From NCBI RefSeq assembly GCF_030457785.1, contig NZ_JAKDUI010000004.1, positions 1-33,101 on the forward strand: a DNA stretch of 33,101 nt. Direction: 5' to 3'. Below the pieces are notes generated by a model. The model ran no database searches, was not told the origin of the DNA, and saw only the letters and a list, made by a program, of their open reading frames with translations. The position numbers and the translations under genes were made by a program. Positions 30,679-33,101 of the stretch are shown one piece after another (within the stretch, counting starts at the first letter, position 1; each line of letters begins with the position of its first letter). Source of the DNA: Psychrobacter sp. (GTDB taxonomy: Bacteria > Pseudomonadota > Gammaproteobacteria > Pseudomonadales > Moraxellaceae).

Positions 30679-31563
30679 TTATGCATTTGCACGCATAAAC
30701 TGTGCAACATAGTTATCAACTGGATTGTCGCGTAGATCACTGGGTGTCCCTGTTTGCACTAAACGTCCTCCATTCAAAATACTAATACGCTGACCAACTT
30801 TGATCGCCTCATCTATGTCATGAGTAATAAAGACAATGGTCTTATGTAGCCGCTCTTGTAGCTCAAGTAGTTGATCTTGTAGCTGAGCACGAATGAGGGG
30901 GTCAAGCGCAGAGAACGCCTCATCCATCAGTAAGATTGGATTATCCGTTGCCAGAGCTCGTGCTAACCCCACACGCTGCTGCATCCCTCCTGATAGCTCG
31001 TCAGGATAGTTATGCTCTAGATTAGGCAGCCCCACCTCATTTAGCCAATACCGTGCCACCTCGTGGCGCTGTTTGGTACTCATTTTTCGCACGCGTAAAC
31101 CATAAGCAACGTTTTGCATAACGGTCATATGTGGCACTAGCCCAAAGTGCTGAAAGACCATACTAACGGTTTGTTGGCGATAATGTTGCAGTTCCTTATC
31201 ATTCAGCGCCAACACATTGATAGCTGTAGATGGTTGTTGATTAGCTGCAGGTACATTGTGATCTGTAATCGTAGTTTGTGCATCAATACTCGTATCAACC
31301 CATATCTTGCCATTGGTTGGGTCAATGAGACGATTTATATGCCGTATCAATGTTGATTTACCAGAGCCTGATAGACCCATAATACAATGTAACTCGCCCG
31401 CCTTAATATCTAAATTGATATCATACAACCCAACCGAATAGCCTGTTTGCTCTTTTACCGCCACACTATCCATGCCTTCCGCCAATAATGCCATCACAGA
31501 CTTCGCTTGCGCACTGCTGGCATTATAAATTTTACTGATATTTTCTAGCCGGATGTGATTCAT
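30679..31563 (-). CDS. proV: Glycine betaine/proline-type ABC transporter ATP-binding protein
   Basis: ATPase subunit of an osmoprotectant importer. Walker A GLSGSGKST, Q-loop VFQHFGLVPHMTVMQNVAYGL, signature LSGGMQQRVGLARAL, Walker B ILLMDEAFSALDPL and H-loop THDIDEA are all seen. The N-terminal EGMDSVAVKEQTGYSVGLYDI insertion is typical of ProV/OpuAA proteins. 294 residues, shorter than E. coli ProV because the C-terminal CBS pair is absent. GAGGA precedes ATG. It follows the permease gene by 89 bp and should be in the same transcript. Confidence 0.92.
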   Translation of the reverse strand: MNHIRLENISKIYNASSAQAKSVMALLAEGMDSVAVKEQTGYSVGLYDINLDIKAGELHCIMGLSGSGKSTLIRHINRLIDPTNGKIWVDTSIDAQTTITDHNVPAANQQPSTAINVLALNDKELQHYRQQTVSMVFQHFGLVPHMTVMQNVAYGLRVRKMSTKQRHEVARYWLNEVGLPNLEHNYPDELSGGMQQRVGLARALATDNPILLMDEAFSALDPLIRAQLQDQLLELQERLHKTIVFITHDIDEAIKVGQRISILNGGRLVQTGTPSDLRDNPVDNYVAQFMRANA

Positions 31564-31652: not shown

Positions 31653-33049
31653 CTAGTGTCTGCTAGCGTCAATAGTTTTTTGACGGGCACGCTTGCCTTG
31701 ACCAAATGCCTGAGTAATACGGTCAATAATAATGGCAACAATGACAATAGCCATACCTGCTTGTAAGCCTTGACCAATATTAAGGGTTTGAATAGATTGC
31801 AACACATCTTCGCCAAGGCCAGGTGCGCCAATCATAGAAGCAAGCACCACCATAGATAGCGACATCATTACTGCCTGATTGACACCTGCCATGATACTAG
31901 GCAATGCTTGTGGTAACTTGATCCAAATAAGTAGCTGCAAGTGTGTGCTACCAAATGAGCGCCCTGCCTCCACCATCTCATGATTGACCTGCGTAATCCC
32001 TAATGTCGTCAGACGAATCAGTGGCGGCAGTGCATAAATAATGGTGGCAAACAATGCAGGCACTTTACCAATGCCAAACAACATGAGCACTGGTATGAGA
32101 TAAACAAAGCTTGGCATGGTCTGCATGATGTCCAATATCGGTGTCACAACCTTACGCAGCAGCTTGCTGCCTGCCATCGCAATACCAATCGGAATACCAA
32201 TAGCTACCGTCACCAACACTGATACGATGAGCAGGGCAAAAGTATCAATCAAGGCACCCCACAAACCAAAAGCACCAATCAAAAACAACCCTGCACCACA
32301 TGCCAGCGCAAACCAAACCTTGCGGACACCGAACCACCCCAACACTGTGACAAGCGCAATAATCACCCATGGTGGAATGACCGTCAATAGGCGCTCAATT
32401 GGTAACAGTAAATAGGTTAATGCCATCGTACTAATACTACGAAATACGTCGCCGTAATTCTGGACAACACTTGCTAATGTGTTATTGAGTGGCGTCTCAA
32501 GTGACCATGAAGGGAAGCTTGATGCAAGACCGAGTTGGTTATTACTGGCGGAGTTCTTATTAGCAGCCGTACTATCAATAGAATCACCTGTTAAGCTGAT
32601 ACCTAATTTGGCCGCTAGATTAGCGGCAGCCTCATCGGATAGCCATGCTTGCCAAACGTTTGGGTTCTCGCGCAAAAACACCAATGCTTGATCATCCCCG
32701 CTACGTTTACTTTCACTCATCTCTAAAATAGCGCCATTGAGCTCATCAGAGGTAAATTGCACCTTTTCAAAGACAGCTGCTAGTTCAGGGTTGGATTCGA
32801 TAAATGGCGTAGAAACGGCAATACCTAATGGTGATATAGGAAACCCTGACACACAGTCCATCTTACCATCAGCGAGCAACAGATCTTGCCAACAAGCATC
32901 TTCATAAGCTGGAAACTTTAATGGTTCAAAGTCGTATTTCGCCATTAAACCCGTAGGCTGCCAGTAGTAAAACAACAGTGGTTTATGCTGCTCGAAAGCA
33001 GAAGCAATCTCTGCATCAAGCGCCGCACCGGTACCAGGATGAGCATTAA
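31653..33049 (-). pseudogene. Substrate-binding/permease fusion of the glycine betaine transporter, 5' end interrupted
   Basis: The visible 3' part encodes the last lobe of an OpuAC-type binding domain joined to a ProW/OpuAB-type permease. Open coding homology starts before the track's TTG at 32975: codons for HPGTGAALDAEIASAFEQHK lead into LLFYYWQPTGLMAKYD, a binding-domain segment. Upstream of that an in-frame TAG and an IS-like end appear, so the N-terminal lobe and signal are missing. The permease has about seven helices, with EAGRSFGSTHLQLLIWIKLPQ as the EAA loop and MVVLASMIGAPGLGEDV near the end. Transport could fail for want of a complete binding protein, unless another is encoded elsewhere. 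Confidence 0.7.
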
Positions 33050-33101
33050 TGAACTACCCACTACCTTAGAGGTAGGGGTTTCTTAGGTAATGCTCATACT
33101 T
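33050..33101 (-). mobile_element. Right end of a putative IS200/IS605-family (TnpB-type) element
   Basis: Read on the minus strand the window edge shows ACCTAAGAAACCCCTACC, then TCTAA, then GGTAGTGGGTAGTTCA. The CCCCTACC/GGTAG-T-GGG hairpin followed by TAGTTCA is the form I associate with right ends of IS200/IS605 elements that carry tnpB. There is an in-frame TAA just before the hairpin (AGC ATT ACC TAA), where a tnpB end would be expected. The element body lies beyond the window. The boundary placed at 33049/33050 assumes the element ends in TTCA. Confidence 0.6.

Follow-up and report, generated by a model that had tools for sequence, protein, structure and literature searches.

A multicopy IS200/IS605-family right end in Psychrobacter that probably doubles as the 3' end of a TnpB omegaRNA

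Known IS200/IS605 elements and the Psychrobacter element

Transposition in the IS200/IS605 family requires the terminal hairpin in any case, as has been established for IS608 and ISDra2. In the model put forward for ISDra2 of Deinococcus radiodurans, about 16 nt of the flank serve as the guide part of the RNA, and the donor joint with its adjacent TAM is cut by the nuclease (PMC8612924). The pentanucleotide TTTAA is the established TAM of other TnpBs, namely those of ISAam1 and SisTnpB1 (PMC12433972, PMC10640517). Gene-less derivatives that retain their ends, known as PATEs or ends-only IS605 elements, have been described for example in Halanaerobium hydrogeniformans, whose PATE retains the tnpB 3' end together with the right end (PMC7290912).

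The DNA analysed here (the window) comprises all 33101 bp of contig C45 in a draft Psychrobacter genome of 296 contigs. Its terminal bases very probably represent the right end of a tnpA/tnpB-type IS200/IS605 element with about 26 copies, the same DNA forming the 3' part of an omegaRNA for which the adjoining flank would be the guide. As read in its complete relatives, the element resembles ISDra2 in its TnpA/TnpB/reRNA organisation, in TnpB homology, in a predicted right-flank guide and in insertion 3' of a pentanucleotide that would also be the TAM (PMC8612924); it differs in its target, TTTAA instead of TTGAT, and in a divergent scaffold sequence, and the Psychrobacter element is known here from sequence. 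ISAam1 TnpB and SisTnpB1, which act in other hosts and with other scaffolds, are compared by TAM only, TTTAA being their TAM and the putative TAM of the element (PMC12433972, PMC10640517). The closest complete element is that of P. piscatorii T-3-2 (NZ_CAJHAR010000022.1, locus L084; 1.76 kb, with tnpA and tnpB), identical at 49/49 positions of the left end and 51/53 of the right end, and a second one, from Psychrobacter sp. FME6 (L085, also with tnpA and tnpB), matches at 48/49 and 51/53. Both have the TTTAA target, the TTCAT end and the 116-nt scaffold in common with the window element, and a single compensatory change in the hairpin, from C-G to T-A, accounts for both right-end differences; one copy with such ends was seen in each of these genomes, against 26 here. 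In other respects the element is an ordinary insertion sequence, a new example of the already known IS200/IS605 TnpB elements.

The right end and its copies

The initial annotation had taken a minus-strand hairpin followed by TAGTTCA for a TnpB-type right end, and this reading is supported, both junctions of the element having been found and relatives carrying TnpB, in several cases with a Y1 TnpA, before the same end. The hairpin reads CCCCTACC-TCTAA-GGTAGTGGG, and upstream of it the window contains 23 nt more of the element (to 33101). The window has no second occurrence of it when as many as 3 mismatches are allowed, shuffled sequences giving an expectation of 0, and the hairpin is not due to chance. 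Within the same genome a 29-mer that includes TAGTTCA has 26 exact matches and one with 3 mismatches, a contig end lying 20-25 nt away in nearly all cases, and alignment of these contig ends shows that all 26 copies are identical through TTCAT and that their flanks diverge directly afterwards. The left end, taken from contig C88 and used as query, returned 26 identical left ends, every one at a contig end, with TTTAA(C) at the junction in 26/26. The window stops at 33101 because the assembler halted at every copy of the element, and its right end belongs to one of about 26 near-identical IS200/IS605-family copies in this genome. The features of the locus are collected in Table 1.

The position of the element at the very end of a contig, and the 31-nt imperfect inverted repeat around the hairpin, are also what an assembly fold-back would produce. 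Against this, the same 53 nt terminate 25 other contigs beside unrelated flanks, the host side fits the intact gene of 18 relatives, and C88 holds the complementary left junction; the fold-back was rejected on these grounds, its probability being close to nil.

Table 1. Features of the element end, its flank and the neighbouring genes in the window (contig C45).
Feature	Position	Strand	Basis and remarks
IS200/IS605-family right end, terminal 53 nt	33049..33101	-	equals the last 53 nt of the putative omegaRNA/reRNA scaffold (model positions 64-116), 5' side cut by the contig end; 57 bits, E 7e-11 (cmsearch); 26 identical genome copies
Right-end hairpin CCCCTACCTCTAAGGTAGTGGG, predicted omegaRNA helix 5	33057..33078	-	sequence; 5/10 pairs changed on both sides among relatives
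Terminal bases TAGTTCAT, including the right-end cleavage position; element end TTCAT	33049..33056	-	26/26 copies TTCAT, then divergence; frame tests at two insertion sites
Guide-equivalent flank TAATGCTCATCCTGGTACCG, host-gene bases, would-be 3' guide of the omegaRNA	33029..33048	-	boundary from copy alignment and frame test; role by ISDra2 precedent (PMC8612924)
Scaffold stretch ATGAGCATTA, fully complementary to the first 10 guide nt (33039-33048)	33088..33097	-	sequence comparison
OpuAC (PF04069) and permease (PF00528) fusion gene, interrupted, 3' part	31653..33048	-	about 207 N-terminal codons on contig C88
ABC transporter ATPase-like gene, downstream of the OpuAC-permease fusion gene	30679..31563	-	ORF; name from position and sequence

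Insertion site and element boundary

Insertion of the element broke a compatible-solute transporter gene, and its two junctions lie in the window and on C88. The latter contig carries the missing N-terminal part of the gene and then the left end, its terminus reading ...GACAGTACTTTTAAC-ATTTTACCGCAGAAAT-hairpin-GATGAATG, and the left end on C88 and the right end in the window share one hairpin, equally oriented; subterminal hairpins at both ends, with no terminal inverted repeats, are characteristic of IS200/IS605 elements. The ATPase-like gene probably shares an operon with the interrupted gene, as predicted.

The OpuAC-permease gene is uninterrupted in 18 Psychrobacter relatives, in which the site consists of TT[TC]AA[CT] joined directly to AA[TC]G (AGTG in two), encoding FNN (FNS in two). 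Judged on this intact gene, the frame is restored solely by joining TTTAA to TAATGCTCATCC (TTTAA/TAATGC). At a second site, on contig C281, the sequence of a relative (L156) is TTTAAATCTAGATGC, and the present genome has ATCTCGAAGCG as the right flank after TTCAT; here only TTTAA followed by ATCTC is in frame. From the frame tests at these two sites it follows that the target is TTTAA and that the element extends from C(ATTTTACCG) to TTCAT. The boundary therefore falls at 33049/33048 and the guide starts with TAATGCTCATCC at 33048, not with TTAATGC as had been annotated at first; the right-end boundary lies one position further out than first placed. At both frame-checked sites TTTAA abuts the flank with no target duplication, and insertion is 3' of a fixed short left motif.

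The base after TTCA is T in all 26 copies and in the 30/30 loci first examined. A fixed right-flanking base is a mark of IS607 (PMC10711439), and an IS607-type element was considered and rejected as the main reading, given the Y1 TnpA of relatives and the frame tests, which put this T inside the element.

Elsewhere in the genome, the left end on C140 (L088) and the right end on C281 (L118) are located in one coding gene with intact orthologues. They were rejected as the two junctions of a single insertion, the distance between them in the orthologues being about 40 bp, and the arrangement would have arisen by two separate insertions or by a deletion of the DNA between the junctions.

Scaffold structure and covariation

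A 116-nt covariance model was built from the right ends and the sequence upstream of them. The first such alignment contained changes on both sides in 12/33 pairs; with 53 distinct sequences, paired cells make up 98.7% and 14/33 pairs have changed on both sides, counts that lean towards structure, as the alignment was fitted to it. None of 500 shuffles was as good, and when the partners were slid in the 53-sequence alignment, pairing dropped to near 30-50%. The model has matches in 25/105 Psychrobacter genomes, and tnpB adjoins nearly every match examined, the exceptions being 278-bp short elements, cases cut by a contig end and one weak match. Rfam yielded no match. The window matches the downstream half of the model, the upstream half falling beyond the contig.

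With respect to the anatomy of an OMEGA system, the covarying RNA overlaps both the 3' end of tnpB and the right end, and a guide whose first base is the host base next to the element agrees with the divergence of the flanks right after TTCAT. The proposal, already made at annotation, that an omegaRNA has its 3' end at this right end is supported by this covarying RNA, which is found beside tnpB in nearly all matches within the genus; on sequence grounds the right end would thus have a double role. It is conceivable that the right end acts only as a DNA hairpin for TnpA, any RNA being a by-product and the copies no longer having a working guide RNA, and the guide seed of the window copy is indeed sequestered in silico (see below). 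The helices upstream of the hairpin, as far as is known dispensable for TnpA, nevertheless covary in 53 distinct sequences and adjoin tnpB almost every time, and such a loss of the RNA function is regarded as very unlikely.

The first 10 guide bases of the window's copy, TAATGCTCAT, are the exact reverse complement of the scaffold stretch ATGAGCATTA. This complementarity was noticed post hoc; matches of at least 10 nt occur among random 20-mers of the window at a frequency of about 1.5e-4, or about 0.4% over 26 copies. When folded with the P. piscatorii 5' part as a stand-in, the window's guide has a predicted occlusion of 0.89, the highest of the 26. The guide of this copy, with its predicted occlusion by the scaffold, may work badly, and the match is taken as a coincidence with a possible functional cost.

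tnpA and tnpB in relatives and in the present genome

Relatives encode a TnpB of about 384-388 aa with RuvC (DED) and zinc-ribbon domains (PF12323, PF01385, PF07282), the gene stopping about 90 nt short of this right end; a Y1 TnpA (PF01797) accompanies it in several copies. The P. piscatorii TnpB (L084) is homologous to the structurally solved one of ISDra2 (PDB 8bf8, 8h1j; E about 1e-72). In the present genome, where contigs below 3 kb read as N, the readable contigs contain no PF01797 and no intact PF01385, and the sole tnpB-like sequence is a degenerate relic of another copy (L001, G000:C294, 81-830) with stop codons and an internal deletion. This absence is little counter-evidence, because a collapsed 1.76-kb repeat would fall among the masked contigs, and it was rejected as a refutation of the TnpB reading. 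Plasmid searches with the nucleotide sequence of the L009 element and with the 278-bp form gave no match; the tnpB protein has thousands of plasmid relatives below 60% identity, and the protein family is therefore common.

Another Psychrobacter genome (G132) contains 33 omegaRNA scaffolds (L165, L191, L195-L226), nearly all beside a full-length tnpB, with tnpA at just one of the scaffold loci read, a tnpB-only expansion.

Short derivatives are also present in the genus. Copies of 278 bp, with no match to tnpA or tnpB, number six in the complete Psychrobacter genome G002 (L023, L027, L029, L031, L060, L064) and one in G022 (L055/L005). They keep the left end, a promoter-like TTGACA-17-TAAATT or TTGACA-17-TAAGTT, the covarying scaffold of the omegaRNA and a right end followed by a flank of its own, and TG precedes the -10 in 10/12 (G002); it is possible that they are stand-alone guide-RNA elements serving TnpB in trans. 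Together with forms of about 50 bp they recall the Halanaerobium PATE and ends-only IS605 in having lost genes and retained ends, although the 278-bp form, unlike the PATE as described, has a promoter-like site and a covarying scaffold, and RNA is unmentioned in that description (PMC7290912). The forms of about 50 bp (L014, L016, L020, L021, near 1480-1530 in right-end orientation) have a single hairpin and join TTTAAC and a left-end foot to a right-end tail, as if one hairpin had arisen by recombination of the left with the right.

The 26 copies could themselves be such short elements without tnpB, provided with both ends, the promoter-like site and the scaffold, and moved and served in trans by TnpA and TnpB encoded elsewhere. 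The occurrence of the short form in G002 and G022 is consistent with this, and the interior of the present copies falls in the unreadable contigs below 3 kb. The ends, however, differ from the complete P. piscatorii element at 2/102 positions and from the short form at 6-8/102, the contigs stopping just before the position that separates full and short forms, and the short-element reading is judged improbable. A comparably small chance is given to the reading that the 26 copies are guide carriers lacking tnpB, a design already seen in the 278-bp form of relatives; each would produce, under an internal promoter, an omegaRNA with a separate guide, and one TnpB source would be directed in trans to 26 empty sites. 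The same comparison of ends suggests that the window's copy is a full-length element with tnpA and tnpB inside.

Proposed mechanism and significance

For the favoured tnpA/tnpB-type element, a Y1 (HUH) TnpA would mobilise the element as single-stranded DNA by recognising the terminal hairpins, and insertion would occur 3' of TTTAA with the target not duplicated. Transcription of the same right-end DNA, on the window's minus strand, would yield the 3' part of the omegaRNA of TnpB, with the adjoining host bases (TAATGCTCATCC...) as its guide. If TTTAA serves as the TAM, TnpB would cleave the TTTAA/TAATGCTCATCC site once it is empty, which would favour copying-back of the element. The suggestion, made at annotation, of a nuclease aimed at its own empty site is the published general model (Karvelis 2021, PMC8612924) and not a special property of the window's copy.

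Taken together, the data describe a TnpB element that occurs naturally in high copy number in a genus both cultivable and cold-tolerant; it has a TTTAA target that would also be its TAM, a scaffold structure and 26 different natural guides. With one of these guides predicted to be bound up in the scaffold of its copy, the element would be a good system in which to ask whether guide quality affects the retention of individual copies.
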